A stretch of 64,000 nucleotides of DNA from Candidatus Tectimicrobiota bacterium (GTDB lineage: Bacteria > JACPUC01), in the NCBI GenBank assembly GCA_016192455.1, contig JACPUC010000007.1:62001-126000 (forward strand), in the 5' to 3' direction. Below are positions 31,214-50,254 of the stretch, in pieces. The notes below the pieces were generated by a model, which was not told the origin of the DNA, made no database searches, and saw nothing but the letters and a program-made list of their open reading frames with translations. The translations under genes and the position numbers were made by a program. Within the stretch, counting starts at the first letter, position 1; every line of letters begins with the position of its first letter.

Positions 31214-32209
31214 ATGGCGAGTGGTGAGCAGACCTCAGGCGGAACGAGCTACGATAGTATTCTCCTCATTGCTTTCGGTGGCCCCACTTCGGGCGACCAG
31301 AGCTACGACTACGTGAAGGGGATTGTCGGCAACCGTGCCGGCGCCGAGCCGCGCATCCGGGCGGTGGCGCGTCACTACGAGCATTTCGACGGCAGCCCCT
31401 TCAATGAGCATACCTTCCGCCAGGCGGAGCATCTGCGGGCTGCCTTGGCGCGGCGCGGCCTCGATGTGCCGGTCTACTGCGGCATGCGGCACTGGCACCC
31501 CTACGTGCGCGAGGTGCTGGCGCGGATGGCCGAGGCCGGCTGCCGCAACACCCTCGGTGTCATCATGGCGCCGCACCAATGCTGGATAAGCTGGGATTGG
31601 TACCAAAACTGCGTCAACGAGGGGAACGGCCGCCTCGGCGACCGGCGCCTGACGTTCACCTACGTCGATCCGTGGTGGCAGGAGCCGGCCTTCATCGAGG
31701 CCAATGCGGCGCGCCTTCAGGAGGCCTTCGCCAGGCTTTGCGGGCAAGCGGCGCAGGCCCAGCTCATCTTCTCGGCGCATGCCATCCCCATCAACGCCTG
31801 CCAGTTCTGCAAGAATGAAGAACGCCGCTGTCCGTACTCGGTGCAGTTCGAGGAGACGGCGCGCCTGGTGGCCCAGGCGGTTGGGCGGGGCGCCGACTAC
31901 CTCACCTGCTACCAGAGCCAGGCAGGCGTGGCGAGCGAGTGGACCAGACCCGCCGTGCGCGAGGTCATCGCCGCCTGCAAGCAGAGAGGAGTAGGCGCGG
32001 TGGTGATCAGCCCCATCGGTTTCCTCGTCGATCACATCGAGGTGCTCTGGGACCTCGACATGGACGTCAAGAAGCTCTGCGAGGAGTACCGCATTACTTA
32101 CGAGCGCGCCGAGACTGTGGAGTCCCATCCCGCCTTCATCGAGCTGCTCGCCGACCGGGTGCTGGCGCGCTACCAAGGCCGCGCGCGGCTTGAAGCGCCG
32201 CTGCACTGA
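31214..32209 (+). CDS. hemH: Ferrochelatase, with internal cysteine cluster
   Basis: 331 residues from ATG 31214, preceded by AGGAGGGAGG; an upstream in-frame ATG at 31148 has no such site. Family marks: ILLIAFGGPTSGDQS, MRHWHPYVREVLARM, the catalytic His in LIFSAHAIPI, and VVISPIGFLVDHIEVLWDLD with the conserved Glu. It inserts ferrous iron into proto- or coproporphyrin. Right after the catalytic His is C-x2-C-x6-C (ACQFCKNEERRC), with four further Cys between residues about 88 and 140. Some bacterial ferrochelatases carry a [2Fe-2S] cluster on internal cysteines, so this one may too; that is inference. Divergent from hemE-hemY with its own promoter. Confidence 0.9.
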   Translation: MASGEQTSGGTSYDSILLIAFGGPTSGDQSYDYVKGIVGNRAGAEPRIRAVARHYEHFDGSPFNEHTFRQAEHLRAALARRGLDVPVYCGMRHWHPYVREVLARMAEAGCRNTLGVIMAPHQCWISWDWYQNCVNEGNGRLGDRRLTFTYVDPWWQEPAFIEANAARLQEAFARLCGQAAQAQLIFSAHAIPINACQFCKNEERRCPYSVQFEETARLVAQAVGRGADYLTCYQSQAGVASEWTRPAVREVIAACKQRGVGAVVISPIGFLVDHIEVLWDLDMDVKKLCEEYRITYERAETVESHPAFIELLADRVLARYQGRARLEAPLH

Positions 32210-32452
32210 GTGCGGCGCGGCGCACGGCGGCGGCGGCGGCGGCCTGGTTCGAACCTTCTTCCTGCAACGGCGCAAGTGTACTGCGGTGCGGGGCCCGAGG
32301 GAGCGATGTCTGGCGCCGCGACGGCGCCAGGGTGCGTTGTCGGGAAAGCGGCTGCGATTGCCTTGGCGGGGTGAAAGGCCCAATGCTGGGCGATAAGGGG
32401 AGATGCGGGGGTGAACTGATGGCAGCGCGCGGGGAGCGCCGCGCGGCCGCGC

Positions 32453-32815
32453 CTACCGCCCCAACAGACCAGCCGTGACGCTCGACTCCAACATGGCGAA
32501 ATCGACCGGCTTCGTCAGGTAGTCCACCGCGCCAAGGTGCATGCCCGTCTCGCCCAGCTCCCGCTGGTGGACCGCCGTCAGGATGATCACGGCGATACCG
32601 GGACGCATCGACTTCAGGTGCTTCAGCGTTTCCATCCCGTCCATAGTGGGCATCCGGAGATCGAGCAGGACCAGGTCGGGTGGCTCCTGGCCGACCTTCT
32701 CCAGCGCCTCCTCTCCGCTCAAGGCGTAGTCGACGGTATGGCCAAGCGTCACCAGGTACGACTGCAGCACCCGACAGGCATCCACCTCATCGTCAACCAC
32801 CAAGATCCGGCCCAT
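32453..32815 (-). CDS. Single-domain response regulator (CheY-like)
   Basis: 120 residues from ATG 32815 (MGRILVVDDEVDACRVLQ). Receiver domain complete: acidic pair in VVDDE, phospho-acceptor Asp in LVLLDLRMPTMDG, Thr in ILTAV, Lys in YLTKPVD. There is no output domain. An upstream in-frame ATG at 32899 has an even stronger ribosome site (GGAGGGGGAG) and would add 28 residues, so the start is open. It closely resembles the later single-domain regulator at 56839-57201. It stands alone about 0.8 kb before the gas vesicle operon on the other strand; its partner kinase may be one of the two large kinases further right. Confidence 0.82.
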   Translation of the reverse strand: MGRILVVDDEVDACRVLQSYLVTLGHTVDYALSGEEALEKVGQEPPDLVLLDLRMPTMDGMETLKHLKSMRPGIAVIILTAVHQRELGETGMHLGAVDYLTKPVDFAMLESSVTAGLLGR

Positions 32816-33643
32816 TGCGACATCTTTCTCCCATCGAAACCCCTCGCTCACGAAACTTCCCGGTCCATGCTCTTCACCGGTGAAAGCGCCCTCGTGCATG
32901 GCCGTCTCCCCCTCCCTGACAGTGACCAGGCGCCCTGAAAGAGATGCGTGCGGCGCCTGGCCCTCATCCTTGCCGCAGGCGTGTGGCTGCGCGCCCGCAT
33001 GACCCCTCCGGGCCCCTCGGGGCCTCTCCCCGAGGATGAAGCCGGAGGCTCAGCTCTTCCGCCGTAAACTGACGCACCGAGGCAAGGAATCTTTCTCTAG
33101 GGTGAACGATTCTTCGTCGATTGGCAAGCTGATCCTTAGCATCTTGCCCTCCGCCTCGACGGGTGGTGAGCGGCGCCGTGGCGCTACGGCGCCATCGCCG
33201 CGAGCGTCGTCGCCGCAAGCGCGACCTTGCAGCCAGGGCATAGCCCCAAGGCGCTCACCGCCGCCCTGGGCGGGCCGTCTCCCGCCGGGCTTCCTCCCAC
33301 CACTCCCCTCACTTTGCCAGTGAACCCGTCGAGTCTCCTTCCCCTCCTGCCGCCCGGCATGTTGACCGTCGGACCCAACGTGTTGCGCCTTCACTCCAGG
33401 CAACCCTCCCGGTAGGTGGCGGGAAGCCACATCTACGTGGGGGCGCAGGGGCACCATCCGCCCCCGGCGCAGCGGCTGGGCCGTGCGCGCCCCACCCCGC
33501 CGCGGTCGGCAAGAAACCGCCGCCTCTCCCCCGCCGTGGCCCAACTATTGCTTGTAGAACACACAAAGTGAAGGTTTCTTGACTTCCCAGTCGAGACGCC
33601 TTACCCCAGGAGTGGCACACTGCGCAACGGAGAGGAGCCGACG
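32816..33643. other. Long control region before the gas vesicle cluster
   Basis: 828 bp without a convincing gene. It holds a sigma54 promoter match at 33537-33551 and, upstream, GAATC-15-GATTC dyad symmetry near 33088-33112 that could be part of an activator site. Minus-strand frames here are composition-driven. Confidence 0.55.
33537..33551 (+). promoter_or_regulatory. Sigma54 (-24/-12) promoter of the gas vesicle operon
   Basis: TGGCCCAACTATTGC: GG and GC doublets are exactly 12 bp apart, followed by TT, as in the TGGCAC-N5-TTGC consensus. It is about 93 bp before the GTG of the first cluster gene. An NtrC-type activator with an intact GAFTGA loop is encoded at the far end of the cluster. 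Confidence 0.7.
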
Positions 33644-34627
33644 GTGTTACGCCTCGACGAGAGCCCCATCATCCTCTTCGGCGGCAAGGGGGGCGTCGGA
33701 AAGACAACCTGCGCCTGCGCCGCCGCGGTCCATCTCGCCAGCCGAGGCAAGAAGACCCTCGTTATCTCAACCGACCCAGCTCATTCCCTGGGCGATAGCC
33801 TGGGGCAACGTCTGGGGGATGAGATGACGCAGATCACGGCGCTGCCCTCCCTCACTGCTCTCGAGCTGAACGCGGCGAAGTCCCTGCGGGAGTTCAAGGA
33901 AGAGTATGAGGAGGAGATTCTCTCCCTCCTGCGCACGGGAAGCTACCTCGATGATGCCGATCTCGCCGAGATTCTCTCCCTGAGCATCCCCGGCTTGGAT
34001 GAGGTGATGGGGTTCAAACGCATCACCGATCTCCTCGCCAGCGCCCGAGCTGACCACGTTCTCATCGATACCGCCCCGACCGGCCATGCCCTGCGCCTCC
34101 TCATGATGCCGGAGCTTGCCGACCAGTGGGTAAAGGTGCTCGCAAGCCTGCGCTGGAAGTACCGCCGGATGGTCACGCAGCTCGTCGGCGGGGTGGCGGC
34201 CGAGCGCGGCGACGACTTCCTCCTTACTCTGAAGCGCAGCGTGAAACGCATGCGCACCTGGCTGCGGGATCGACGGCGCACCCAGTTTGTCGTCGTCACC
34301 ATCCCGGAGTACCTGGCGGTACGCGAGACCCAACACCTCGTCGAGGAGCTGCGCGCCGCCCACGTGCCGCTGCGGCACCTGATCATCAACCACGTGCGGG
34401 CCGGCGGCGCCCTTCCCTGTCCGTTCTGCGCCGAGGCGCGCATGGCCCAGCAACCGTACATCGCCGCGCTGCGCGCCGCCTATCCCGACCTCGCGGTAAC
34501 CCTCATGATCCAGGAGCCGCGCGAGGTGCGCGGCCTCAATGCCTTGCGCTGTGTGGGGCGGCAGCTCTTCGACCGGCTTGAACCTCGCGGCCTCAGCGAG
34601 CACCTCCTGCACGCACCGGCGGGCTAG
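33644..34627 (+). CDS. Get3/ArsA-type ATPase at the head of the gas vesicle operon
   Basis: 327 residues; GTG 33644 has AGAGGAG 6 nt upstream. Deviant Walker A FGGKGGVGKTTCACAAA (residues about 7-23), switch I STDPAHSLGDSLG, and switch II LIDTAPTGHALRLLMMP are those of ArsA/Get3 ATPases. A CPFC pair (near residue 263) matches the zinc-clasp CxxC of Get3 dimers. No arsenic genes are nearby. Get3 carries hydrophobic tail-anchored proteins. In this position an analogous role in handling hydrophobic GvpA-family subunits or a vesicle assembly complex is plausible but is inference. Only about 100 bp separate it from the first gvpF/L gene, same strand, so it is probably the first gene of the sigma54-dependent operon. 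Confidence 0.82.
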   Translation: MLRLDESPIILFGGKGGVGKTTCACAAAVHLASRGKKTLVISTDPAHSLGDSLGQRLGDEMTQITALPSLTALELNAAKSLREFKEEYEEEILSLLRTGSYLDDADLAEILSLSIPGLDEVMGFKRITDLLASARADHVLIDTAPTGHALRLLMMPELADQWVKVLASLRWKYRRMVTQLVGGVAAERGDDFLLTLKRSVKRMRTWLRDRRRTQFVVVTIPEYLAVRETQHLVEELRAAHVPLRHLIINHVRAGGALPCPFCAEARMAQQPYIAALRAAYPDLAVTLMIQEPREVRGLNALRCVGRQLFDRLEPRGLSEHLLHAPAG

Positions 34628-34728
34628 CGACGCGGCGCGGAGGCGCGAGCGGCGCAAAAGAGATGGCGCGGCAAGCGCGCCAGAGAGCCTGGAGATGCCA
34701 GCGAGCGGCGGAGGCGGAGGAAGGAATC

Positions 34729-35778
34729 ATGGGAGTGCGGCTCTACTGCATTGTTGAGAAGGCCACGGCGCCGAGCAGCGCGGTGCCGCAGCTTCCGGAG
34801 CTGGCGCTCGGCAGCATTCAGTACCGGGACCTCCTGGCGCTGACGAGTCGTGAGCTGCAGGCGGGGCTTGCCGATCTCGACGAGGCGGCGCTGCGCGAGC
34901 AGCTTGCGCGCCACCACCGGGTGAATGAGGCGGCGGCGAAGCTTGGGGCGGTGGTGCCGCTGCGGTTCGGCACCATCGCCGCCAACCACCGCGAGGTGCG
35001 GGCCCTCCTGAAGCACGGCTACATCGAGCTGCGCAGGCTGCTTGAAAAAGTGCGCGATCGGGTGGAGGTGGTGGTGCACGGGCGCCTCGACCGCGCGCTC
35101 ATCCTGCACCAGATCGCCCGCCAGGATGGCGAGGTGCAGCGCCTGCGCGCCGCCCCCCCGAGCACCGATCCCGAGACCTGCCGCGAGCAGCAGATCGCCC
35201 TCGGGAAGGCGGTGTACGAGGCCATCCATGCCTATGAACGCGGCTGCATCGCGGAGGTGCGCGCACGGCTTGGCAGGCATGCGGAGGAGGCTGCGGAGGG
35301 ACGCTTGCTGGCGGAGGAGATGGTGCTGAACCTCGGCTTCCTGGTCAGGAGCTTGGAAATCCCGGCATTCCGCGCCGCCCTCGCGGAGCTCAACCGCTCG
35401 TTCGCGGGCAACCTCATCTTGACCTGGCACGGTCCCTTGCCGCCTTACAGCTTCGCGAGCCTGCAGTTCCACCACGTCGAGTTCGAGCGCATCGACGCGG
35501 CGCGGCGGAATCTGGGCCTCGACGAAGAGGCGACGACGGCGGAGATCACCACCGCCTACCACGACCTGGCGCGCCGCTTCCATCCCGACGGCGCGGGCAA
35601 TGGCGAGGGCGCCGAGACCTTCAAGGAGCTGAGCGCGGCGCGGGCGATTTTGCTGCGTTACTGCCAGAACTACCGCTACTCATTCCGACGCGAGGCCGTG
35701 GCGCGCAGCGTCATCGTCCGGGCCACCGACGCGGCGGCGGACTACACGCGGAGTCTCACCTATGTCGAAGCCTCCTGA
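34729..35778 (+). CDS. gvpF: GvpF/GvpL-family gas vesicle protein fused to a C-terminal J-domain
   Basis: 349 residues from ATG 34729 (GGAGGAAGGA upstream). Residues 1-250 are GvpF/L-like: MGVRLYCIVEK start, VVPLRFGTIAANHREVRALL, conserved LAEEMVLNLGFLVRS, and the family end WHGPLPPYSFASLQF. Residues about 254-312 form a J-domain: ARRNLGLDEEATTAEITTAY, DLARRFHPDGAG with an intact HPD (residues 285-287), then FKELSAARAILLRY. J-domains stimulate Hsp70 ATPase, so this protein could recruit DnaK to vesicle assembly. GvpF/L proteins are minor structural or assembly factors that contact GvpA. It overlaps the next gvpF/L gene by 17 bp. Confidence 0.85.
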   Translation: MGVRLYCIVEKATAPSSAVPQLPELALGSIQYRDLLALTSRELQAGLADLDEAALREQLARHHRVNEAAAKLGAVVPLRFGTIAANHREVRALLKHGYIELRRLLEKVRDRVEVVVHGRLDRALILHQIARQDGEVQRLRAAPPSTDPETCREQQIALGKAVYEAIHAYERGCIAEVRARLGRHAEEAAEGRLLAEEMVLNLGFLVRSLEIPAFRAALAELNRSFAGNLILTWHGPLPPYSFASLQFHHVEFERIDAARRNLGLDEEATTAEITTAYHDLARRFHPDGAGNGEGAETFKELSAARAILLRYCQNYRYSFRREAVARSVIVRATDAAADYTRSLTYVEAS

Positions 35779-36547
35779 GGCCGGCGTCTACTGCTACGGC
35801 ATCTGCCGCAGCTCAACCCCGCGGAGCTTCGGCCCCCTCGGCATCGGCGCGCACGGTGACGAGGTGCGGACCCTCGCCGTCGGGGAGATCGCCGCGGTGG
35901 TGAGCTGCTCGCCGGCCGGCACGTACCGCGTCTCGCGCCAGAACGTCCTGGCCCATCAGCAAGTCCTCGAGGCCGTCATGCCGCACTCGCCGGTGCTGCC
36001 GATCCGTTTCAGCACCGTCGCCGACTCCGCCGCGCAGGTCATCGCCGTTCTGGAATCCCGCTACGAGGAATTCGACCACCTCCTCGAACGCATGACGGGG
36101 AAGCATGAGCTGGGCGTGAAGGCGATCTACCGCGAGGCCGTCATCTATGCGGAGCTCGTCGAGGCTGAGCCACGCATTCAGCGCCTGAAACAACGGCTCA
36201 CGGGAACGCGTCTCGAGGAGAGCTACTACCCGCGTCTCGAGCTGGGTCGCCTCGTGGAGGCCGCCCTGGCGGCGAAGCGCGAGCGGGAGGGGGCGGCTCT
36301 CCTCGCCCTCCTGGCGCCGCATGCGGTGGAGCACCGACAGGGGCGGCTGTTGCACGAGCGGATGCTCCTAAATGCGGCCTTCCTTGTCGAGAAGGCCCGG
36401 GAACGCTCCTTCGATGAGGTCGTGGAGGAGCTGTCGCGGCGACACGACGCGCGCATAGAGCTGCGGTACGTGGGCCCCATGCCGCCCTACAACTTCGTGA
36501 ACCTCACGATCAACCTGCGCGCCGAGCGTGCGCCCTCGCCGCGCTAG
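35762..36547 (+). CDS. gvpL: GvpF/GvpL-family gas vesicle protein, paralogue 2
   Basis: 261 residues, close to the usual GvpF/L size. ATG 35762 lies inside the last codons of the J-domain fusion, indicating coupled translation. Family marks: GVYCYGICRSS start, VLPIRFSTVADSAAQVIAVL, LGVKAIYREAVIYAELV, LLHERMLLNAAFLVEKARE, and the end ELRYVGPMPPYNFVNLTI. No extra domain. Expected to bind GvpA and help start or shape the vesicle wall in the cytoplasm. One of four family members in the cluster, which may be subunits of a hetero-oligomeric assembly complex. Confidence 0.9.
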   Translation: MSKPPEAGVYCYGICRSSTPRSFGPLGIGAHGDEVRTLAVGEIAAVVSCSPAGTYRVSRQNVLAHQQVLEAVMPHSPVLPIRFSTVADSAAQVIAVLESRYEEFDHLLERMTGKHELGVKAIYREAVIYAELVEAEPRIQRLKQRLTGTRLEESYYPRLELGRLVEAALAAKREREGAALLALLAPHAVEHRQGRLLHERMLLNAAFLVEKARERSFDEVVEELSRRHDARIELRYVGPMPPYNFVNLTINLRAERAPSPR

Positions 36548-36578
36548 GTTGCCTGAAGCAGCCTGGGGGAGAACTTCC

Positions 36579-36809
36579 ATGTTCCTTCTCGACGATCTTC
36601 TCCTGCTCCCTTTCCGCGGCTTGCTCGGCATCCTGAAGGAGATTCAGCGGCTCGCCGAGCAGGAGACCTCCGATCGCGCCAGGCTGCACGAGAAGTTGCT
36701 CTACGCGCAGCTCCAGTTTGAGCTCGATGAAATCACCGAGGCCGAGTACCAGCAGCGCGAGGAGGAGATTCTCCAGCGCTTGCAGCTCCTGGAAGAGGTT
36801 GAGCGCTGA
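36579..36809 (+). CDS. gvpG: Gas vesicle protein GvpG
   Basis: 76 residues, typical GvpG size. It begins MFLLDDLLLLPFRGLLGILK, the GvpG signature, followed by a charged helix (EIQRLAEQETSDRARLHEKL) and a Glu-rich C-terminal helix EEEILQRLQLLEEVER. An accessory protein needed for vesicle formation, found with GvpF/L in most clusters. Its stop shares a base with the start of the following gvpO-like gene (TGATG), so translation is coupled. Confidence 0.9.
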   Translation: MFLLDDLLLLPFRGLLGILKEIQRLAEQETSDRARLHEKLLYAQLQFELDEITEAEYQQREEEILQRLQLLEEVER

Positions 36810-37174
36810 TGCCGAGCAGACGACCCAGAACCTCGGAACGGCGAGGCGGCGACAACGGCGACCTTGAGGGCGCGGCTCCTCCTCAAGGTTGCGCTGAGAC
36901 GAGAGGACACCCTGCCATGCAGCTCAGAGAGGCGGGCGAGGCGGTGCGGCGGGCGCTCTCGGAGGTGCTCGCCAAGCGGGGCGAGATCGTCACCCTGCGC
37001 AGGACCGAGGAGGGGTGGGAGTCGCACGTCGAGGTAGTGGAAGAGAACGAGTACCTCAAGGCCCTCGGCAAGCATGTCGTGGATCGGAACTACTACGTGA
37101 TCGAGCTCAGCGAGGCGTTGGAGGTGGTCGCCTACGACCGCCTGGCGAAGAAGCCCCCGGCACGAGAAGAGTAA
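36809..37174 (+). CDS. gvpO: Gas vesicle protein GvpO
   Basis: 121 residues from ATG 36809, which overlaps the gvpG stop; ATG 36917 (MQLREAG) would give an 85-residue form without the Arg-rich head. The core EEGWESHVEVVEENEYLK and YYVIELSEALEVVAYDRLAK matches the GvpO family, where this beta-alpha unit is conserved. GvpO is essential for vesicles in haloarchaea; its action is not fully understood. It lies 3 bp before the next gvpF/L start. Confidence is high for family, moderate for the start. Confidence 0.82.
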   Translation: MPSRRPRTSERRGGDNGDLEGAAPPQGCAETRGHPAMQLREAGEAVRRALSEVLAKRGEIVTLRRTEEGWESHVEVVEENEYLKALGKHVVDRNYYVIELSEALEVVAYDRLAKKPPAREE

Positions 37175-37177
37175 CGC

Positions 37178-38110
37178 ATGGCTCCCCTGCAGACCCCTGA
37201 TACTCCCGCGCGCGGCCTCTACGCCTACGCTGTCCTCGAGCCCCACCGCCAACCGCCGCCTGGGGGGCCGCTTGGGGTCATCGGCATCGACGGCGCGAGC
37301 CCGGTGGAATTCGTCGGCCATGGAGCCGTCCTGGCCGCGGTGAGCGAGGTGGCACTCGAGGAGTTCACGGGCGAGCGTCTGAAGGCCAATCTCCAGGAGA
37401 TGCGCTGGCTCTCCCGCAGGGTTAGCGCCCACGAGGCCGTCGTGGAGCGCCTGATGGCATGGGGAACCCTGGCGCCCATGAAGTTCGGCACCCTCTTCTC
37501 GAGTCTCGCCGCGCTGCGGCGGTTTCTGCGCGCCTCCCATGAGGATCTGCGCGACACCCTGGCGGCGCTGCGCCTGCATGAGGAGTGGGGCGTGAAGGTC
37601 TACGGCCGTAGCCCAGCGGTGCGGACGCTGCGTCGCCGGCTGGAGGACGACCAGGAGCGCTTAGGCACGGAGCGGAGCGAGGCGGCGTCCCTGCCTGCCG
37701 GGCGCGCCTACTTCCAGCGCAAGCAAACCGAATGGGCGCTGCTGCGGGAGAGCGACGCGACCATGGAAGCCCTGGCGCGGCATATCCACGCCCTGCTCGG
37801 CGGCCAGGCGTCGCGCAGCGCGATCAGCCCCGCGCCGGGCGGCTTTCCCCTCGCTGCCGCGCCAGCGGAGCGCGGCGCGCAGGACCGTGGCGCAGAGGAG
37901 GGCGGCCCACGGGGGGGGACGAGGGAGAGCTGGGAACTGCTCCTCAATGCAGCCTACCTCGTGCCGCTCGGTAACCGGCAGCGCTTCCTGGCCTGCGCCG
38001 CCTGGTCAAACGACCAGCACCAGGCGCCTGGCCTGCGTCTGGCGATCACCGGCCCGTGGCCACCCTATCATTTCACCCCTTCATGCTGGAAGCGAGGTGC
38101 CCGTGTTTGA
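37178..38110 (+). CDS. GvpF/GvpL-family gas vesicle protein, paralogue 3 (with insertion)
   Basis: 310 residues from ATG 37178, 3 bp after the gvpO stop. GvpF/L marks: GLYAYAVLEP start, WGTLAPMKFGTLFSSLAALR, EEWGVKVYGR, and the end LAITGPWPPYHFTPS. It is longer than usual because of a low-complexity insert rich in Ala/Gly/Pro/Arg around residues 210-250, just before the conserved ELLLNAAYLVP segment. It overlaps the start of the following GvpA-family gene. Role as for the other paralogues; the insert may be a linker specific to this copy. Confidence 0.85.
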   Translation: MAPLQTPDTPARGLYAYAVLEPHRQPPPGGPLGVIGIDGASPVEFVGHGAVLAAVSEVALEEFTGERLKANLQEMRWLSRRVSAHEAVVERLMAWGTLAPMKFGTLFSSLAALRRFLRASHEDLRDTLAALRLHEEWGVKVYGRSPAVRTLRRRLEDDQERLGTERSEAASLPAGRAYFQRKQTEWALLRESDATMEALARHIHALLGGQASRSAISPAPGGFPLAAAPAERGAQDRGAEEGGPRGGTRESWELLLNAAYLVPLGNRQRFLACAAWSNDQHQAPGLRLAITGPWPPYHFTPSCWKRGARV

Positions 38111-38327
38111 CGACCCCATCGTTGAGAACGAGCAGACATCGATGCGGCGCGTAAAACTCGTCGAGGTCCTCGACCGGCTCCTCAACCGCGGGGTGTACCT
38201 GGAGGGAGACCTGACGCTGGCGGTTGCCAACATCGACCTCATCTACGTCGGGCTGCGCGTCCTCGTCAGCTCAATTGAGACGGCGCAGCGGATCGCCTCC
38301 CGGAGCGGCAGTGGAGCCTGCGAGTGA
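38103..38327 (+). CDS. GvpA-family minor protein (GvpJ/M/S type)
   Basis: 74 residues from GTG 38103, which overlaps the previous gene's stop; GAGG lies upstream. The core KLVEVLDRLLNRGVYLEGDL and LAVANIDLIYVGLRVLVSS follows the GvpA helix-strand-strand-helix pattern. The changes from GvpA (NRGVYLEGD in place of DKGIVIDAW) are those of minor paralogues such as GvpM, GvpJ or GvpS. Such proteins are thought to nucleate or cap the vesicle. Too short and divergent to choose the letter by eye. Confidence 0.83.
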   Translation: MFDDPIVENEQTSMRRVKLVEVLDRLLNRGVYLEGDLTLAVANIDLIYVGLRVLVSSIETAQRIASRSGSGACE

Positions 38328-38340
38328 GCTTGGAGGAAGC

Positions 38341-39099
38341 ATGAGCGGCGAACTCTACGTCTACGGCATCGTCGACAGCCGCTGCGGCCTGGCGATCGCG
38401 GGGCGCGGCATGGCCGGAGGCTCCTTGCAGCTCCTGGCCTGGCATGAGATCGGCGCCGTGGTCAGCAGCGGCGGCTCCTTCCCTCTGCGCTATGAGACCG
38501 AACACGTCCTGCACCACGAGCGCGTCCTGGAGCGGCTCATGAAGGGCCATAGCGTGCTTCCCTGTCGCTTCGACTTGCGCCTGCGGGACGAGGAGGAGGT
38601 GGCGGCGCTCCTGCAAGGGAAGTATGCCGCATTCCGGGCAAACTTGCGGCGCGTCGCGGACACGCAGGAGTGGTGCGTGAGAGCGCTGTGGGACCCCGAG
38701 GAGCTGGCCGCCTGGGAAGAGCTGTCGCCCCATGGAAGTTCTGAACGCATCAACGTCGATGTCTCGGATTCGCCTGACGGCGGCGCGGCCTACCTGCTCC
38801 GCAAGTGCCAGGCCTGGCGGCGGGAGGCGCTCCTGCATGACTTCGCCGAGACCCTCATCGAGGCGGTCCACGAGCCTCTCCAACGTCATGCCCAGGAGAG
38901 CCTCACGCGCAAGTGCCTGAGCGAGCGACTCATTCTCGCCGCCGCCTATCTGGTGCCGCGATGCCGGGCTGCCGAGTTTGTGGCCTGCTTCCGCCGCCAA
39001 CGTCTGGCGTTCGCGCATCTCCAGTTTCTCCTTAGCGGACCCTGGCCGCCCAGCAGCTTCATCGACGAAGAGCTGCGGGGGCCGCTCATGGTCACCTGA
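38341..39099 (+). CDS. GvpF/GvpL-family gas vesicle protein, paralogue 4
   Basis: 252 residues from ATG 38341 (GGAGGAAGC upstream), 13 bp after the GvpA-family gene. Begins MSGELYVYGIVDSRCGLAIA, then VLPCRFDLRLRDEEEVAALL, EWCVRALWDPEEL, RLILAAAYLVPRCRAAEF and the family end LLSGPWPPSSFIDEE. It has the GvpF/L frame but is more divergent from paralogues 1-3. Presumed assembly factor contacting GvpA or the neighbouring minor protein. Confidence 0.87.
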   Translation: MSGELYVYGIVDSRCGLAIAGRGMAGGSLQLLAWHEIGAVVSSGGSFPLRYETEHVLHHERVLERLMKGHSVLPCRFDLRLRDEEEVAALLQGKYAAFRANLRRVADTQEWCVRALWDPEELAAWEELSPHGSSERINVDVSDSPDGGAAYLLRKCQAWRREALLHDFAETLIEAVHEPLQRHAQESLTRKCLSERLILAAAYLVPRCRAAEFVACFRRQRLAFAHLQFLLSGPWPPSSFIDEELRGPLMVT

Positions 39100-39151
39100 G
39101 ACGGCTCTGCCGAGAAGGGCGCCGCGGCTGAAAAGGTAGAATGGGGGGAAC

Positions 39152-39493
39152 ATGTTTAACGAGTCGACCATTCACGGTGAGCGACTGGAGGACTTCGCCG
39201 CTGAGATGGAAAGGATCGCCAAGCCTCGCGCGCGGCGCATCAATGCAGATCCAGAGCGCGCCGAACAAGGGCTGGCCAAGCTGGTGCTGACACTCATCGA
39301 GCTGCTGCGCCAGCTCCTCGAACGGCAGGCGGTGCGGCGGGTCGAGGCCGGCAGCCTGAGCGCCGATGAGGTGGAGCGGCTGGGTCTGACGCTCATGAAG
39401 CTCGAGGCGAAGATGGAAGAGCTGAAATCCCTCTTCGGTCTGCATGATCAGGATCTCAACCTGAACCTGGGGCCGTTCGGCGATCTCCTCTAG
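39152..39493 (+). CDS. gvpK: Gas vesicle protein GvpK
   Basis: 113 residues. The family signature RINADPERAEQGLAKLVLTL is complete, followed by IELLRQLLERQAVRRVEAGS, LSADEVERLGLTLMKLEAKM and EELKSLFGL. GvpK is a conserved accessory protein required for vesicle formation in several organisms. ATG 39152 has a GGGG stretch upstream. It is the last gene of the first gvp block before a 306-bp gap. Confidence 0.93.
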   Translation: MFNESTIHGERLEDFAAEMERIAKPRARRINADPERAEQGLAKLVLTLIELLRQLLERQAVRRVEAGSLSADEVERLGLTLMKLEAKMEELKSLFGLHDQDLNLNLGPFGDLL

Positions 39494-39799
39494 CCTGGCG
39501 GCGCACCTTCCCAGGTTGGCGCGCCGGCGCGAGAGAAACCCCTGAGGAAGGCGGCAGCGGCCCGAAGAAAGGAGTCAGGCTGGCATCGAGATAAAGCATA
39601 ACTTGCTCTTGGATAAGGTACGAAACATACTTTTGTTCTCGGCGCTGACCTGTCAGGCGATGTCGAGCGACCCCCAGGGGACGCGCGCAGGCCAGGAGGC
39701 GACGGTGCGGCGCCAGGCGTGGGAGCAGGCGGGCGCGCGGATGAGCGCGACAGATCACGCCCGCGGCGAAATCAGGAAGCTGAGTAAGGAGGGTCAACG
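39494..39799. other. Spacer between the two gvp blocks, with an AT-rich promoter island
   Basis: 306 bp with no gene. AT-rich at 39590-39640, where a sigma70-type pair can be read. The rest is high-GC. Confidence 0.55.
39603..39631 (+). promoter_or_regulatory. Candidate sigma70 promoter for the second gvp block
   Basis: TTGCTC (39603-39608), 17 bp, CATACT (39626-39631), in the only AT-rich patch of the cluster. It lies about 170 bp before the 130-residue helical protein gene. Confidence 0.45.
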
Positions 39800-40192
39800 A
39801 TGTCGTGGAGCACAGAGATGCAGGCACTTCGGATGGAGATTGAGTCTTCGTTCAAGGATCGACGCCAGATGCTCCTTGGCCTGCAGCGGCGGGAGTACGC
39901 GCGCAAGGAGAGCTGCGCTGATTTCATGACGGCGCTGCACACGGCGCAGGGCGAACAGACGCGGGCGCTGTGGGCAATGCTCGGTGAGAGCCGGCGCCAG
40001 GGCCGGCAGCGTTTCAACACGCTCATGGAGGGCTGCAAGGCGAAGCGGCGCGAACACCGCGAAATCCTCGCGGCCCTGTTCCGTTCCAGTCGCGCCAGCC
40101 TTGCGGCGCTGCGCCGCGCCTTGGAGCAGAGCGGTGAGGAGTGGCGCGCCATGCGGAGCAGAATTGCCGCGGGTGTCGGCGCGCCGCACTAG
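39800..40192 (+). CDS. All-helical repeat protein of the gas vesicle cluster, GvpC candidate
   Basis: 130 residues, ATG 39800. No known family was recognised with certainty. The sequence is a charged helix throughout, with hydrophobic clusters recurring about every 15 residues: ADFMTAL, RALWAML, QRFNTLM, REILAALF, SLAALRRAL, each separated by Arg/Glu/Gln-rich stretches such as GESRRQGRQ and CKAKRREHRE. Cyanobacterial GvpC has amphipathic helical repeats of about 33 residues that bind the vesicle surface, and no recognisable gvpC is present elsewhere here. It is a reasonable candidate for a GvpC analogue or a vesicle-bound stiffening protein; that is inference from pattern and position only. 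Confidence 0.6.
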   Translation: MSWSTEMQALRMEIESSFKDRRQMLLGLQRREYARKESCADFMTALHTAQGEQTRALWAMLGESRRQGRQRFNTLMEGCKAKRREHREILAALFRSSRASLAALRRALEQSGEEWRAMRSRIAAGVGAPH

Positions 40193-40562
40193 GAGCTGTC
40201 GCCGGCCGTTGTGAAGTCGTGCTCCTCGACCGGGCAGGTGGAGGCGCGAGCAACAACCCGCCCTACAGTAAGCAGGGCGAGCAGCATGGGGAGAGCCACC
40301 GGTAGCGCCTCCGCTGCCGCTGCCGTGGGAGAGTCCGAAGGAGCGGCGCAGCCGACGACCGACGCCGCGCGCTCAGCGCCGTCGCCGGCTGCGCGACGTT
40401 GCGACAGAGCAGCGCGCCGTTCGCCCGCGTGGTTCCAGACTCGTGGTTCCAGACCACGGGACCCGACACGGCAGGCGAAGCCGACAGGGGGTGTTCCCGG
40501 CCCGCGCGGGGGGTGATCTCAACGCCCACACCACGCGCCCCTGGCGCCCACCAAGGAGCTGC
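40193..40562. other. Spacer before gvpJ with a tandem repeat
   Basis: 370 bp without a convincing gene; a low-complexity frame at 40211-40516 is judged spurious. Contains a 13-bp repeat copied twice with a 14-bp period and a CGTGGT/ACCACG dyad, about 110-135 bp before gvpJ. Confidence 0.5.
40428..40460. repeat. Tandem 13-bp repeat with trailing dyad
   Basis: CGTGGTTCCAGAC at 40428-40440 and again at 40442-40454, followed by CACGG so that CGTGGT/ACCACG can pair. It could be a regulator site upstream of gvpJ-gvpN or just a local duplication. Confidence 0.6.
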
Positions 40563-40871
40563 ATGGAAACCGCGCCAATAACGAGCATCTCGCACTCGAC
40601 CGGGGCGGTGACGCTCGCGGACATCTTGGAGCGAGTCCTCGACAAGGGAATCGTCATTGCCGGCGACATCAGCATCTCGCTGGCTGACGTGCAGCTCCTG
40701 ACGATCAGGATTCGGCTGCTCATCGCCTCTGTCGACAAGGCGCGGGAGATGGGCATCTCCTGGTGGGAAGGCGACGGCTTCCTCTCCTCGAAGGCGCGCG
40801 AGATCGAGGCGGAGAACCGCGACTTGAAGGCGCGTCTCGCCCGGCTCGAGGAGGGTTGCAACGCCTCCTGA
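40563..40871 (+). CDS. gvpJ: Gas vesicle protein GvpJ (GvpA family)
   Basis: 102 residues from ATG 40563 (AAGGAGC upstream). The GvpA-like core is LADILERVLDKGIVIAGDIS, then ISLADVQLLTIRIRLLIAS. After it come ISWWEGDG and a charged helix REIEAENRDLKARLARLEE. The Trp-Trp pair after the core is typical of GvpJ. GvpJ is a minor wall component thought to act at vesicle initiation or at the tips. It is followed by gvpN after about 190 bp. Confidence 0.88.
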   Translation: METAPITSISHSTGAVTLADILERVLDKGIVIAGDISISLADVQLLTIRIRLLIASVDKAREMGISWWEGDGFLSSKAREIEAENRDLKARLARLEEGCNAS

Positions 40872-41063
40872 GCAGGGGCGTTGGAGGTTCCTCCCGCGGC
40901 GGGAGGAGCAGGTCCTCCTCGGCGGGGCGAGGGGCGTGGTGAGAGGTCGGCAGGAGCGGCGCGGAGCACACACAGCCGGCGCGGTAGGCCGGCAGGAGGC
41001 AGCAAGACGACACGGCTGCCGCTGTCTTCACGAGGCAGGAGTCAAGCCAGGGAGAGCGTCACG

Positions 41064-42218
41064 ATGGCGATCGAGGAGTTTCCCACACTCTTGGCGCCGC
41101 GGCAGGCGGATGGGTTTGTCGAGACGGCGTACGTCCGCGACCTCAGCACGCGCAGTCTCGCTGCCATTGAAGCCGGTTTCCCCATTCACTTCCGCGGCGT
41201 CTCCGGCAGCGGCAAGACGACGCTGGCGATGCACGTGGCCTCCAAGGTCGGCAGGCCGGTGGTCCTCTTGCACGGCAACGAAGAGCTGAGCACGTCGGAG
41301 CTGATCGGCGGCGAACAGGGCTACCGCTTCCGCCGCGTGGTCGACCGCTTCATTCACTCGGTGCTGAAGACCGAGGAAGACCTCACGAAGCACTGGGTCG
41401 ACAACCGGCTCACCATCGCCTGCAAGCACGGCTTCACCCTCGTTTACGACGAGTTCAGCCGCTCGCGCCCCGAGGCCAACAACATCCTTCTCTCCATCCT
41501 GCAGGAGAAGATTCTCGACCTGCCGATGCTGCGAGGCCACGAGCACTACCTGAAGGTGCACCCCAACTTCACCGCCATCTTCACCAGCAACCCCGAGGAC
41601 TATGCCGGCGTCTTCAAGACGCAGGACGCCTTGCGTGACCGCATGATCACCTTCGACCTCGACTTCTTCGACCGCGCCACGGAGGCGGCGATCAGCCAGG
41701 CCAAGTCCGGCCTGCCGCTCGGCGCGGTGGAACGCATCGTCGACCTCGTGCAAGGGTTTCGACAAAGCCAGCAGTACGACTTCGCCCCCACGGTGCGGGC
41801 CTGCATCATGATCGCCAAGCTGACGCGCGTGCGCGGCGCCTCGGCGGCCGCCAACGACCCGGTGTTCCGCCAAATCTGCGCCGACGTGCTCATTTCGGAA
41901 ACGAGCCGGGTGGGTCTGCACGGCAAGAGATTGAAGGTCGATCAGATGCTGGCGCGCCTGATCGACAGGCACTGCGCGGCGGCGCCGCAGGCGAGCCAAG
42001 CGAGGAAGAGCTCTCCAGCCTCTCTCGGTCCCGAGGCGCAGAGCATGGCGGCGAACGGCCCCTCCTCGAGCAGTAGCGGTGGCTTGCAGGAGAACCGGAA
42101 CCCGACCCGAGGCGCGGGGGCAAACGCACCAGCGGGACTCTGGCAGCGGCGACAGGGTGAGCCGGTTGCCCCAGCCTCGGCAGGCAATCAGGCGCCCGGC
42201 ACGCACCGCCACGTTTAG
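41064..42218 (+). CDS. gvpN: Gas vesicle AAA+ ATPase GvpN
   Basis: 384 residues from ATG 41064 (GGGAGAG upstream). MoxR/CbbQ-type AAA+ fold: Walker A HFRGVSGSGKTTLA (near residue 45), HGNEELSTSELIGGEQGYRF, Walker B GFTLVYDEFSRSRPEANNIL (near 130), sensor FTSNPEDYAGVFK and RDRMITFDLDFFD. GvpN is required for full vesicle growth in most systems. The last 60 residues (from about 325) are a Ser/Gly/Pro/Ala-rich disordered tail not usual for the family. It is followed 24 bp later by a small coiled-coil gene and then gvpA. Confidence 0.92.
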   Translation: MAIEEFPTLLAPRQADGFVETAYVRDLSTRSLAAIEAGFPIHFRGVSGSGKTTLAMHVASKVGRPVVLLHGNEELSTSELIGGEQGYRFRRVVDRFIHSVLKTEEDLTKHWVDNRLTIACKHGFTLVYDEFSRSRPEANNILLSILQEKILDLPMLRGHEHYLKVHPNFTAIFTSNPEDYAGVFKTQDALRDRMITFDLDFFDRATEAAISQAKSGLPLGAVERIVDLVQGFRQSQQYDFAPTVRACIMIAKLTRVRGASAAANDPVFRQICADVLISETSRVGLHGKRLKVDQMLARLIDRHCAAAPQASQARKSSPASLGPEAQSMAANGPSSSSSGGLQENRNPTRGAGANAPAGLWQRRQGEPVAPASAGNQAPGTHRHV

Positions 42219-42242
42219 GAAACCAGCAGGAGAACGTTCACC

Positions 42243-42548
42243 ATGAAGGGCCTCGCGGATCTCAAAACCGCTCGACACGTGAAGATGCGGGGTATGCCGC
42301 AGGTCGCGCAGTCTCCGCCCATCGAACTCTTCATGCTCGGCAAGCAGAAGGAGCGCCTGGAGAAGGAAGAGCAGCAGCTCCTGAAAGCCTTGCAGCGCAC
42401 GCAGCACACCCTGCGACACCTGGCGCAGCGCCTGGAGAGCCTGCGGCAGGAGATCGCCAGGGAAGGCGGCGGCGCCGCGAACGCCGAGCCAGCAGCAGGA
42501 GAGCCGCACGGCACGCGCGGCTGGCAGACGATGCCGTTAACCTACTGA
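42243..42548 (+). CDS. Small coiled-coil protein of the gas vesicle cluster
   Basis: 101 residues from ATG 42243 (CAGGAGAACG upstream), 24 bp after gvpN. N-terminal basic segment [13 protein letters not shown], then [20 protein letters not shown] and [20 protein letters not shown], a strongly predicted coiled coil, then a disordered tail. Small coiled-coil proteins of this style occur in proteobacterial gvp clusters (for example proteins called GvpV), but the match here is by general look only. Probably an accessory factor co-expressed with gvpN. Confidence 0.6.
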
Positions 42549-42655
42549 GCCGTTGCGGAGCCTTGCACTCTCGAAGCGCAGGCAGGCGTCGGAGCGTAAC
42601 CAAGACGAACGAGCACGCCGCACGGAGTGCGTGCGGAAACGTGGCAAAGGCATCG

Positions 42656-42672
42656 GTGTGGGGAGGCCACAC
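42656..42672 (+). promoter_or_regulatory. Small hairpin in the gvpA leader
   Basis: GTGTGG / CCACAC stem with loop GGAGG, 43 nt upstream of the gvpA ATG. The loop itself is a ribosome-site-like sequence; the true gvpA site (GGAGG at 42701) is separate. Confidence 0.35.
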
Positions 42673-42714
42673 AACTCTCAGGAGACTGAGAACCACCTTT
42701 GGAGGAATCGAATC

Positions 42715-42930
42715 ATGGCAGTCGAAAAAGCAATCGGGTCATCGAGCCTGGTCGAAGTGGTCGACCGCATCCTGGACAAGGGCATCGTCATCGACGCCTG
42801 GGTGAGAGTCTCCCTCGTGGGGATCGAGCTCCTGGCAATCGAAGCCCGCGTCGTCGTCGCGGGTGTCGACACGTATCTGAAGTACGCCGAGGCCATCGGC
42901 CTGACGGCCACGGCCGCCGCGCCCGCGTAG
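42715..42930 (+). CDS. gvpA: Major gas vesicle structural protein GvpA
   Basis: 71 residues, exactly the usual GvpA size. ATG 42715 has GGAGGA about 9 nt upstream. The near-invariant core [20 protein letters not shown] is present, continuing [20 protein letters not shown] and [12 protein letters not shown]. GvpA forms the ribs of the hollow, gas-permeable protein shell. Only one copy is seen. A long inverted repeat follows the stop, which could limit read-through or protect the abundant gvpA transcript, and gvpH lies beyond it. Confidence 0.97.
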
Positions 42931-42977
42931 CGGGTGGCCCATCTTCCTGGACGCCGCCCGCGGGCGCAGGCGAGGGG

Positions 42978-43057
42978 GGGTTAGGCACTGCGGTTTCCCC
43001 CACCGATTCCCAGGTTCGGGTCCACTTTGCAGGATCAACCCGAGCACTGCCTAACCC
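42978..43057 (+). terminator. Long inverted repeat downstream of gvpA
   Basis: Outer arms GGGTTAGGCACTGC (42978-42991) and GCACTGCCTAACCC (43044-43057) pair over 14 bp with one mismatch. An inner TCGGGT (43016-43021)/ACCCGA (43038-43043) pair stacks below. No T-run follows, so it is a stabilising or attenuating structure more than a classical terminator. Confidence 0.5.
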
Positions 43058-43126
43058 GTTATCGAAGCGCTCCGCGGGGGCGTTGAGGTCGAGGCGCGGT
43101 TCTGCTGCCGCCGCCAACGGGGAACA

Positions 43127-43142
43127 TGTTCCACGTGGAACA
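43127..43142. promoter_or_regulatory. Perfect parS-type 16-bp palindrome (ParB site)
   Basis: TGTTCCACGTGGAACA fits the bacterial parS consensus TGTTnCACGTGnAACA at every fixed base. A second 12-bp palindrome, GGAACATGTTCC (43121-43132), overlaps its left half. It lies in non-coding sequence between gvpA and gvpH. Confidence 0.75.
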
Positions 43143-43306
43143 TTCGCCCGGCGGCGGCAGGCCCGCCGCGTCCTAAAGGTCCGGTCGGGCGGCAGGCTGC
43201 CGTTCCCGGAGCCGACGGTCCGCCCCGGGCGGCCGGCATGGACGCCGGCGCCTCATTCGTTCATCCCGCACCGATCCAGGTGCCATGGCAAGAAGGAGAC
43301 CGGCTG

Positions 43307-43858
43307 ATGAGTCGGCGCAAGACGAGCGGCCCAGCGGGGCTCGGTGGCGTCTTCAAGGGTATCGCCTCGTTCATCGACCTCCTCGTTGACCTCACCGAGG
43401 AGGGTGCAGGCAAAGAGGAGGACAGCACCGAGGAGGGCAAGGGGATCAAGCGGTCGCGGGAGTTCCGCGGCGCCACGGCGAGCGGCAAAGAGTTTCGCGG
43501 CGTGTACGGGTTTTCGGTGCGGATGGGACTGGGCGGGCCGGAGGTGGAGACGTTCGGCAACCTCCACCCCGCCGACGAGGGCGCCGTGGTGGAGGAACGC
43601 CGCGAGCCCCTGGTCGACGTCTTCGATGAGGGGCAAAGCCTGCAGGTGGTGGTGGAGCTGCCGGGGGTGGAGGAGGAGAGCATTGATGTTCGCCTCGCCG
43701 ACGATGTCCTCATCCTCTCCACCGAGCGCGGCGCCCGCAAGTACTACAAGGAGGTGCTGCTGCCCGCGCCGGTGGAGGCGCAGAGCCTGGTCCGCACCTA
43801 CCGCAACGGCATCTTCGAGGTGCGCCTGCAGAAGCGAGCCGAGCCGCCGCGGGAGTGA
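43307..43858 (+). CDS. gvpH: Gas vesicle protein GvpH, Hsp20-like
   Basis: 183 residues from ATG 43307 (GAAGGAG about 10 nt upstream). The N-terminal part (KGIASFIDLLVDLTEEGAGK, then a charged linker and RGVYGFSVRMGLGG) matches the GvpH head. Residues about 98-178 are an alpha-crystallin domain: EPLVDVFDEGQSLQVVVELP, SIDVRLADDVLILSTERGAR, YRNGIFEVRLQK (the GxL-like end reads GIFEV). In haloarchaea GvpH acts as a small heat-shock-type factor for vesicle proteins. Located after gvpA and the parS-type site; the next small gene follows 64 bp later. Confidence 0.85.
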   Translation: MSRRKTSGPAGLGGVFKGIASFIDLLVDLTEEGAGKEEDSTEEGKGIKRSREFRGATASGKEFRGVYGFSVRMGLGGPEVETFGNLHPADEGAVVEERREPLVDVFDEGQSLQVVVELPGVEEESIDVRLADDVLILSTERGARKYYKEVLLPAPVEAQSLVRTYRNGIFEVRLQKRAEPPRE

Positions 43859-43922
43859 GCGGCCTCGCTATCGTTCCTCATCCCGCCTCTTCTCGGCGCG
43901 CCGATCTCTTGGGAGGAGAATT

Positions 43923-44120
43923 GTGAACGCAGCCCCTTCGGAGCTCCTCGCGCGGCAACTCCGCCGCACCAGGGCCAAGCTGATGAAGAAGATCCAGGAT
44001 CTCCAGGAGAGGCAGCGCACGCTGCCCGCGAAGTGGCTCGAACGGCTCGGCCAGAAAGAGCGTGAGCTGCGCGCCTTGGCGGAGCAGCTCGACGAGCTGC
44101 TGCACCGTCTCTCCCGTTAG
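43923..44120 (+). CDS. 65-residue helical protein at the end of the gas vesicle cluster
   Basis: GTG 43923 preceded by GGGAGGAG at good spacing. Entirely helical and charged: LLARQLRRTRAKLMKKIQDL, QERQRTLPAKWLERLGQKER, ELRALAEQLDELLHRL. Probably a coiled-coil accessory of the vesicle cluster. No family recognised. It is the last plus-strand gene before the convergent Cdc48 gene. The same frame runs back through gvpH as a shadow, which is not coding. Confidence 0.55.
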   Translation: MNAAPSELLARQLRRTRAKLMKKIQDLQERQRTLPAKWLERLGQKERELRALAEQLDELLHRLSR

Positions 44121-44332
44121 GCTCTCCGCCGCGCCCCATCGCGGTCCTTCTTCGGCTCACGGATACAAGCCCCTCTCGTCCCTCTCTTAATCTCTATCTC
44201 TGCGCGTATGGAGCCTTGTGAGGGATCATCCCCCCGGTTTACGCGAGTGCGCGGCACCGGCGCGAAGGGGGGGGCGTGCATCCCCCGCCCCTCGTGTTGA
44301 CAATAATGCAGCGACGATGGCTTTGTCTTCAA

Positions 44333-46492
44333 TCACGTTGACCGATCACTAGCGCCACGCCGCCAAGGGCGCAGCGCCTCGTCGAAGTGGCGCCCGGAGA
44401 TGCGCAAGGAGCCAGCCCCGTCATCGGCGGCGTTGCGGCCGCGCAGGAATTCCCGCACGGCGCACATCCCGGCCTCGCGGCAGAGGGCCTCAATCTGCGC
44501 TCCCTGCCAACCGCTGGTGGCGAGGACCAGCGCCGCCAGATCGACATCGGCGCTTAGCGGCATGCGGCGGGTGTGCACCTCGAGAATCTCCCGCCGCCCC
44601 TCATCATCCAGGGGCCCCACCTCGAGCTGCAGGTCGAAGCGCCCGGAGCGCAGCAGCGCCGGATCGACCATATCAATGCGGTTCGTGGTGGCCAGGACGA
44701 TCACCCCCTTCTGGCTCTCGATGCCGTCAAGCTCGGTAAGGAGCTGGCTGACCACCCGCTCGGTGACGCCGGCGCTCTCGCCGTGCCCGCGCACCGGCGC
44801 CAGGGCGTCGATCTCATCGAAGAAGAGGATGCACGGCGCCGCCTGCCGGGCTTTGCGGAAGAGCTCCCGCACGCCCCGCTCCGCCTCGCCCACCCACTTG
44901 GAGATGAGCTCCGGCCCCTTCACGGAGATGAAGTTGATCTGGCACTCCGTGGCGACGGCCTTCGCCAGCAGGGTCTTGCCGCAGCCGGGAGGGCCGTAGA
45001 TGAGGATGCCCTTCGGAGGGCGCAGGTGCGCCTCCTCGAACAGCCGCCGGTGGCGCAGCGGCCACTCGATGTTCTCCTGCAACCACTGTTTCGTCGCCGC
45101 CAGGCCACCCACATCGTCCCAGCTCACGTTCGGCACCTCAAGGGAGACCTCCCGCAAGCCCGAGGGCTCGACCTCCCGCAGGGCCGCCAGGAAGTCGTCG
45201 CGCCCCACCCGCAGATCGAGGAGCTCCTCGTAGGGGATGCGCTGGCTCTCAAAGTCGACCCGCGGCAGGAGGCGGCGCAGGGCCACCATGGCGGCTTCGC
45301 GGCAGAGGGCCTGGAGATCGGCGCCGACGAAGCCAAGGGTGAGCTGGGCGAACTCCTGCAGGTCCACCTCCTCGGAGAGCGGCATGCCGCGGGTGTGGAT
45401 CTCGAGGATACGCTGGCGCCCGGTGGTGTCGGGCACGCCGATGACGAGCTCGCGGTCGAACCTCCCCGGGCGGCGCAGGGCCGGGTCGAGGGCGTTCGGG
45501 ATGTTCGTGGCGCCGATCACGATCACCTGGCCGCGCTCGCGCAGACCGTCCATGAGCGCTAGAAGCTGCGCCACGACGCGCTTCTCCACCTCGCCGATGG
45601 CCGTCTCCCGCTTCGGCGCGATGGCATCAATCTCATCCAGGAAGAGGATGCTGGGCGCCTGCTTGCTTGCCTCGTCGAAGAGCTTGCGCAGCTTCGCCTC
45701 GCTCTCGCCGTAGAACTTGTGGATGACCTCCGGCCCGTTGACCGCGAGGAAGTGGGCTTCGGTCTCGTGCGCCACGGCGCGGGCGATGAGGGTCTTGCCG
45801 CAGCCCGGCGGGCCGACCAGGAGCACGCCCTTGGGGGCGTCGATGCCAAGGCGCTCGAAGACCTGCGGGTGCTTCAACGGCAGCTCGATCATCTCGCGGA
45901 TGCGCTGCACCTCCCGCCCCAGGCCGCCGATGTCGTCATACGTCGTCTTTGCCGGGCTGGGACGCGCTCCTTTCTCGTGGGCGATACTGAGAACGGTGGT
46001 GGGGTGCACCACCACGGCGCCGTCCGGGATCGTCTCGGCGACGAGGAAGTCATAGGAGCGCGCCCCGAAAAGGTTGGCCCGCACCGTATCCCCCCTGGTC
46101 ACCGGCAGGCCCTCCATGAGGCGCACCAGGTAGCGGTGATCGCGCTCCGACAGGGGGCTGCGCAGAAGCGTGCGCGGGTTCAGCGTGATCTTGGCGGCGG
46201 CCTGGCAGGCGGTTTTCTCCACCAGCACCTTCTCGTCCAGCCCCACCTTGGCGTTGCCGCGCACCAGGCCATCGATCTGCACCAGGCGCTGGCCGCGCTC
46301 GGCGGCAAAGGCCGGCATCGCCTTCGCCACGGTCTGCTGCTTGCCCGTAATGCGCACGACATCGCCCACCGCCACATCGAGCTCCTTCATATCCGCCGGA
46401 TCGAGGCGGGCGATGCCGCGGCCGACATCCTTGGAATGCGCCTCCACAACACGGAGCTGCAAGCTGGCCTGGGGTTCGGCCTCGGGCGCCAT
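44333..46492 (-). CDS. Cdc48/VAT-type double AAA+ ATPase
   Basis: 719 residues. ATG 46492 is preferred because AAAGGAG lies 6 nt upstream, while ATG 46498 directly abuts it. An N-terminal double-psi-barrel/VAT-N domain (RVVEAHSKDVGRGIARLDPA) is followed by D1 with LLVGPPGCGKTLIARAV and LFLDEIDAIAPKRET, and D2 with LIYGPPGCGKTLLAKAV and LFFDEIDALAPVRGHGE. Arg fingers RRPGRFDRE and LRSGRFDLQ are in place. This is the p97/Cdc48/VAT unfoldase class, common in archaea and sporadic in bacteria. It faces the gas vesicle operon end to end, and its promoter-proximal genes are a two-component system, so a role in vesicle turnover or quality control is plausible but inferred. Confidence 0.93.
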   Translation of the reverse strand: MAPEAEPQASLQLRVVEAHSKDVGRGIARLDPADMKELDVAVGDVVRITGKQQTVAKAMPAFAAERGQRLVQIDGLVRGNAKVGLDEKVLVEKTACQAAAKITLNPRTLLRSPLSERDHRYLVRLMEGLPVTRGDTVRANLFGARSYDFLVAETIPDGAVVVHPTTVLSIAHEKGARPSPAKTTYDDIGGLGREVQRIREMIELPLKHPQVFERLGIDAPKGVLLVGPPGCGKTLIARAVAHETEAHFLAVNGPEVIHKFYGESEAKLRKLFDEASKQAPSILFLDEIDAIAPKRETAIGEVEKRVVAQLLALMDGLRERGQVIVIGATNIPNALDPALRRPGRFDRELVIGVPDTTGRQRILEIHTRGMPLSEEVDLQEFAQLTLGFVGADLQALCREAAMVALRRLLPRVDFESQRIPYEELLDLRVGRDDFLAALREVEPSGLREVSLEVPNVSWDDVGGLAATKQWLQENIEWPLRHRRLFEEAHLRPPKGILIYGPPGCGKTLLAKAVATECQINFISVKGPELISKWVGEAERGVRELFRKARQAAPCILFFDEIDALAPVRGHGESAGVTERVVSQLLTELDGIESQKGVIVLATTNRIDMVDPALLRSGRFDLQLEVGPLDDEGRREILEVHTRRMPLSADVDLAALVLATSGWQGAQIEALCREAGMCAVREFLRGRNAADDGAGSLRISGRHFDEALRPWRRGASDRST

Positions 46493-46634
46493 ACTCATCT
46501 CCTTTCGCGGTACTCCGCTCCACCTGCCGAGCTGTCCTGGAATCAACAGCCGAACGGCCGGCTCGCGCCCGCGACACGGGGAGGTGCAGCGAGGCGAGTC
46601 GCGCTCCGGCAGCGGCCGGCGCGCTCGCCGCGGT

Positions 46635-48537: not shown

Positions 48538-48589
48538 GGCTGTCTCAGGTCCTTGCCAGGTTGCGAAGAGCTTCCGGGCCCACCCGAAG

Positions 48590-50080: not shown

Positions 50081-50254
50081 GTCGCGGGTGCTCCCTGTGC
50101 GGGGCGGGCGGCGTGTTGAGGCGCGGCGGTTCCGGCCGTTGCGGCCGAGCCAGCCGCGCCCTGCTTATCCAGCAGGGCGGCGCGACGGGGCGGCTTGCAG
50201 GCAGTCCCGCCGCCGCGCCGCCCAGACGTTAGGTTGTGTGCCTGTAACAAAGCA

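Follow-up and report, generated by a model that had tools for sequence, protein, structure and literature searches.

A candidate sigma54 promoter and a linked NtrC-family activator in a rearranged gas-vesicle gene cluster of Candidatus Tectimicrobiota

The rightward gas-vesicle (gvp) operon of a Candidatus Tectimicrobiota bacterium is probably read from a sigma54 promoter at 33537-33552 under the control of an NtrC-family activator encoded in the same cluster, a reading to which we give a probability of roughly 0.7. The first-pass annotation of the window (the whole stretch of 64,000 nucleotides analysed here) had proposed this pairing, and the proposal fits the sequence evidence, the arrangement known from Serratia and the statistical conservation in homologous clusters. 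The control principle is already published; what differs here is the layout, in which the site precedes arsA and gvpA follows 9 kb downstream of it, late in the operon. The first-pass annotation mentioned neither this precedent nor the lack of a sigma54 site before gvpA.

Low oxygen and quorum sensing are the cues to which the gvp cluster of Serratia responds. In Serratia sp. ATCC 39006, 5'RACE placed the start of gvpA1 behind a sigma54 consensus, and its transcription requires the NtrC-like GvrA as well as GvrB and GvrC; the regulatory operon is read from a sigma70 promoter, and vesicles are absent from an rpoN mutant (PMC4982088, PMC11778176). According to the same authors, a second operon with gvrA as its first gene is usual in the gvp clusters of proteobacteria (PMC4982088, PMC11778176).

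Organization of the gas-vesicle cluster

The genes of the cluster, with the candidate promoter, are as follows.

33537-33552, + strand: candidate sigma54 promoter TGGC(-24)-N7-TTGC(-12)T, TGGCCCAACTATTGCT (motif and weight-matrix score)
33644-34627, + strand: arsA-like (GET3/ArsA) ATPase, leading the rightward gvp operon (PF02374, E=7e-69; TIGR00345)
34663-39493, + strand: gvpF/L-DnaJ, gvpF/L, gvpG, gvpO, gvpF/L, gvpJ (about 38103-38327), gvpF/L and gvpK (Pfam; phmmer against relatives)
39800-42548, + strand: X1 (39800-40192, unassigned), gvpJ/S-type (40563-40871), gvpN (41064-42218) and X2 (42243-42548, a small conserved protein)
42715-42930, + strand: gvpA, the main shell protein
43307-43858, + strand: gvpH (Hsp20-like; PF00011)
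44333-46546, - strand: CDC48-type AAA ATPase (TIGR01243, 911 bits), found in most related gvp clusters

In the product of 34663-35778, a DnaJ domain is fused C-terminally to a GvpF/L protein. A further receiver-only response regulator, which is not an activator, is encoded divergently from arsA (32453-32899, - strand), and a long non-coding stretch (32900-33536) lies between the two genes.

Between gvpA and gvpH lies a perfect palindrome, TGTTCCACGTGGAACA (43127-43142), which we take to resemble the chromosomal parS consensus. The genome has 13 exact copies, spread over 10 or more contigs, against 0 for the control, and a parB gene lies about 1 kb from one of the copies. The palindrome is likely a chromosome-partition site located within the gas-vesicle cluster.

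The promoter element upstream of arsA

The TGGC and TTGC elements reported in the first-pass annotation are present on the + strand with the canonical GG/GC spacing exact, the two doublets being 10 bp apart within TGGC-N7-TTGC. The distance of about 93 bp to the first cluster gene was likewise borne out: 93 nt separate the -12 C (33551) from the GTG of arsA at 33644, which is preceded by a strong Shine-Dalgarno sequence, GGAGAGGAG. Transcription from this element is predicted to start at about 33562-33563. The genome encodes RpoN (PF04552, E=4e-64), and a consensus scan of the + strand from 32000 to 51500 found no sigma70-like site, including before arsA, with the proviso that the E. coli consensus may not be that of the host.

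Chance alone would give 3.5 copies of the bare TGGC-N7-TTGC core in the window, and three are present. A count at chance level makes the bare core no evidence, and a weight matrix was therefore used instead. The matrix (possible maximum 18.7) was written from general knowledge of the sigma54 consensus, so that its scores are approximate; on this scale the 33537 site reaches 15.2 and ranks second among approximately 128,000 positions on both strands of the window. Markov sequences matched in composition are expected to hold about 0.0012-0.0018 equally good sites for each 450 bp of a single strand and 0.3-0.5 across the whole window, so it is the placement before an operon that makes the 33537 site notable. 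The earlier statement that the match is unlikely by chance thus fails for the bare core and stands for the matrix (rank 2, with about 0.002 such sites expected over the 450 bp before the gene). A chance site antisense within a coding gene at 34913 (- strand) has a near-equal score.

Genome-wide calibration was carried out by pattern searches with reversed patterns as controls. TGGC-N7-TTGCW was found 117 times against 60 for its reverse, and the strict TGGCAC-N5-TTGCW eight times against none; this excess suggests that the genome carries and uses sigma54 promoters.

The top-scoring sigma54-like site of the window, AGGCACGCAACTTGCT, is at 50568-50583 (+ strand), and 187 bp separate it from the GTG of a multi-PAS sensor kinase of 1804 aa (50755-56169) that is divergent from the gvr operon and is followed by two receiver-only regulators. 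The other core matches, 9237 and 50785 (both - strand), were considered as partner promoters and set aside; the latter is aimed at the kinase of the gvr operon across a distance of 700 bp and falls close to, or within, the start of another gene.

The 33537 match could have arisen by chance, with the operon read from a housekeeping promoter that the consensus does not recognize and the activator serving gvpA in some other way or other promoters, for example the 50568 site before the large PAS kinase. The chance-level core count, the better score at 50568, the failure to find an activator-binding palindrome upstream of 33537 (see below) and the possible divergence of host sigma70 promoters from the E. 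coli consensus all speak for this. We nevertheless consider it unlikely: a matrix score of this size is improbable in a short upstream region, the position is right for a promoter, and the statistics across gvp clusters show that such a site and an orthologous linked activator tend to be kept together.

Linked regulators and the ancestry of the activator

An operon on the - strand at the far end of the cluster encodes a kinase, a receiver-only regulator, the NtrC-family activator and the CDC48 ATPase. Its regulatory features are the following.

46635-48149, - strand: GvrA-type activator with receiver, AAA+ domain with GAFTGA and Fis-type HTH (PF00072, PF00158, PF02954; motif; tree)
48109-48618, - strand: receiver-only response regulator, GvrC-like by position
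48590-50080, - strand: PAS-PAS-HisKA-HATPase sensor kinase, GvrB-like by position
50254-50282, - strand: sigma70-like TTGACA-N17-AATATT before the kinase-regulator operon (consensus match only)

As had been noted on first reading, the activator is the only one of the sigma54 class in the window: PF00158 occurs there once, and the GAFTGA loop is whole (ELFGHEKGAFTGA). About 11 other full-length PF00158 matches are found elsewhere in the genome. Its placement at the other end of the cluster beside a PAS kinase of its own was also confirmed, the kinase adjoining together with the receiver-only regulator, which occupies the position that the regulator has in the Methylosinus and Methylocella gvp clusters.

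In its gvp operon behind a -24/-12 element, its cluster-encoded NtrC-family activator and its separate regulatory operon with further regulators and a sigma70-type promoter, the window resembles Serratia 39006. In Serratia, however, the promoter stands before gvpA1, whereas in the window it stands before arsA, and gvpA comes near the end; the regulatory operon of the window, together with cdc48, is moreover at the far end and read from the other strand. Given the Serratia precedent, the window would add a further member, from a new lineage, to a control scheme that is already published.

A maximum-likelihood tree of activators, which included nine others from the same genome but not Serratia GvrA, placed the window's activator apart from those nine and together with five gvp-linked activators from Methylosinus, Methylocella, Planctomycetota, Nitrospirota and Burkholderiales (97/89). 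The enclosing group of 14, the window's activator and thirteen others, is entirely gvp-linked (97/87); the exact neighbour within it is uncertain owing to the long branch of the window's activator. The domain set, the linkage to gvp genes and the grouping with gvp-linked activators together place 46635-48149 in the GvrA type. In four of the five other clusters of the 97/89 group (L046, L047, L052, L125), a -24/-12 site lies either in the interval from the regulators to gvpA or just before gvpA.

Gas-vesicle clusters in other phyla

A scan based on a GvpN alignment yielded 80 gvp loci from many phyla; among the genomes searched, none other belonged to the same order, class or phylum. In relatives the common order is regulators, gvpA, gvpN, gvpH, arsA, cdc48, gvpF/L and so on, gvpK and gvpS on a single strand. 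The window is rearranged, with arsA first, gvpA near the end and the regulators and cdc48 on the opposite strand. None of the related clusters has the arsA-first layout, so that the bases at 33537 are not directly comparable.

Upstream of gvpA, a sigma54 site with a score of at least 12 was found in 17 of 63 homologous gvp loci. Controls on the same loci gave 0, 0, 1 and 0 with the spacer altered by -2, -1, +1 and +2, respectively, two on the reverse strand and one in reversed sequence. Sites were present in 13 of 26 loci with a linked activator versus 4 of 37 without (Fisher p=0.001, which is optimistic, since loci of related genomes lack independence). The conserved sites mostly stand 64-84 nt ahead of gvpA, and that of the window stands at the similar distance of 93 nt before the present lead gene of its operon. 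The scan of related clusters that the first-pass annotation had called for recovered conserved -24/-12 sites before gvpA, and no arsA-first cluster with which to compare the site of the window. Recurrence of sigma54 control in gvp clusters across phyla is thus statistically supported at the level of sequence and extends known biology.

Plasmids of Methylosinus sp. C49 and Methylocella tundrae share with the window the activator, of the same clade, the PAS kinase, the receiver-only regulator, gvpA, gvpN, Hsp20 and CDC48, and have a sigma54-like site 75-82 nt before gvpA. Unlike in the window, their regulators lie on the same strand directly upstream of gvpA, which leads the operon. Bacteroidota/Chlorobi clusters (for example L080, L092 and L097) have a sigma54-like site about 76-82 nt before gvpA, and those of Bacteroidota, like the window, have a linked NtrC-family activator; the Bacteroidota/Chlorobi activators, in contrast to that of the window, form a separate clade.

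The dependence of gvpA on the 33537 promoter is the main uncertainty. The promoter could be real but serve the assembly genes only (arsA to about gvpK), with gvpN, gvpA and gvpH read from one or more promoters of their own in the gaps 39493-39800, 40192-40563 or 42548-42715. GvpA is required in large excess, gvpA normally comes first with strong transcription and in relatives is headed by a promoter of its own, and several genes from gvpK onwards are separated by gaps of 167-373 bp, where other promoters may lie. On the other hand, the genes run uniformly in one direction, and those gaps hold neither a sigma54 nor a consensus sigma70 site on the + strand. By the weight matrix there is no sigma54-like site in the 450 bp preceding gvpA; the best candidate scored 7.1, at chance level and within the preceding gene, and was discarded. 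Overall, we regard separate transcription of the shell genes as rather unlikely.

Search for an activator-binding site

At several Bacteroidota/Chlorobi loci, where it is of the CGCACAnnTGTGCG type, and at one Patescibacteria-labelled locus, a palindrome has its centre exactly 149 nt ahead of the TGGC, whereas nothing similar is seen in the window. The loci with this palindrome upstream of gvpA are L060, L080, L092, L094 and L097. The offset fits the expectation for an upstream activating sequence, and the palindrome is probably the binding site of the GvrA-type regulators of those loci.

Upstream of 33537, no palindrome like those of the relatives was found by motif or by position. The relatives' motifs CGCACAnnTGTGCG and TATGGAAnnnnTTCCATA had no matches in the window or matched at chance level, and 14-mers shared by the regions upstream of 33537 and 50568 reflected GC-rich chance similarity only. 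Two GC-rich palindromes upstream of 33537 (33172-33193 and 33015-33035), which are unlike the relatives' motifs, are candidates at best.

That a binding site for the cluster's activator was not found, together with the roughly 11 other PF00158 proteins of the genome, would be compatible with a different activator of the genome serving the 33537 promoter. This appears quite improbable in view of the linkage of 46635-48149, its orthology to gvp-linked activators and the Serratia case, where the linked GvrA is the activator (PMC4982088).

Proposed mechanism and implications

A mechanism for sigma54 control by the linked activator is proposed where 33537-33552 would start the rightward operon arsA-gvpF...gvpK-gvpN-gvpA-gvpH. 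The PAS kinase (48590-50080), expressed from the sigma70-type promoter of the other strand, would phosphorylate the receiver of the activator 46635-48149, which would then bind DNA upstream of 33537 and, by its GAFTGA loop and ATP hydrolysis, open the sigma54-polymerase complex held there. Vesicles would be produced only upon signalling to the kinase; stress as that signal, one of the options in the first-pass prediction, goes further than the sequence allows. The sequence itself shows the -24/-12 element, rpoN, the kinase, the regulator and the intact activator, the lack of a sigma70-like site before arsA and an arrangement conserved in other phyla; the start, the action of the linked activator and its place of binding, the phosphorelay and the signal we infer.

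More tentatively, sigma54 control by an orthologous linked activator might be an ancient rule of gvp clusters across phyla that has persisted through rearrangement, with the promoter kept before the lead gene, here arsA. If so, a promoter before arsA would mean that the assembly machinery is transcribed ahead of the shell protein. The proposed control would extend the sigma54/GvrA flotation control of Serratia to an otherwise unsampled bacterial lineage, and the same switch recurs statistically in the gas-vesicle clusters of many phyla. This would help to predict when uncultured bacteria float and to build gas-vesicle clusters that can be induced.
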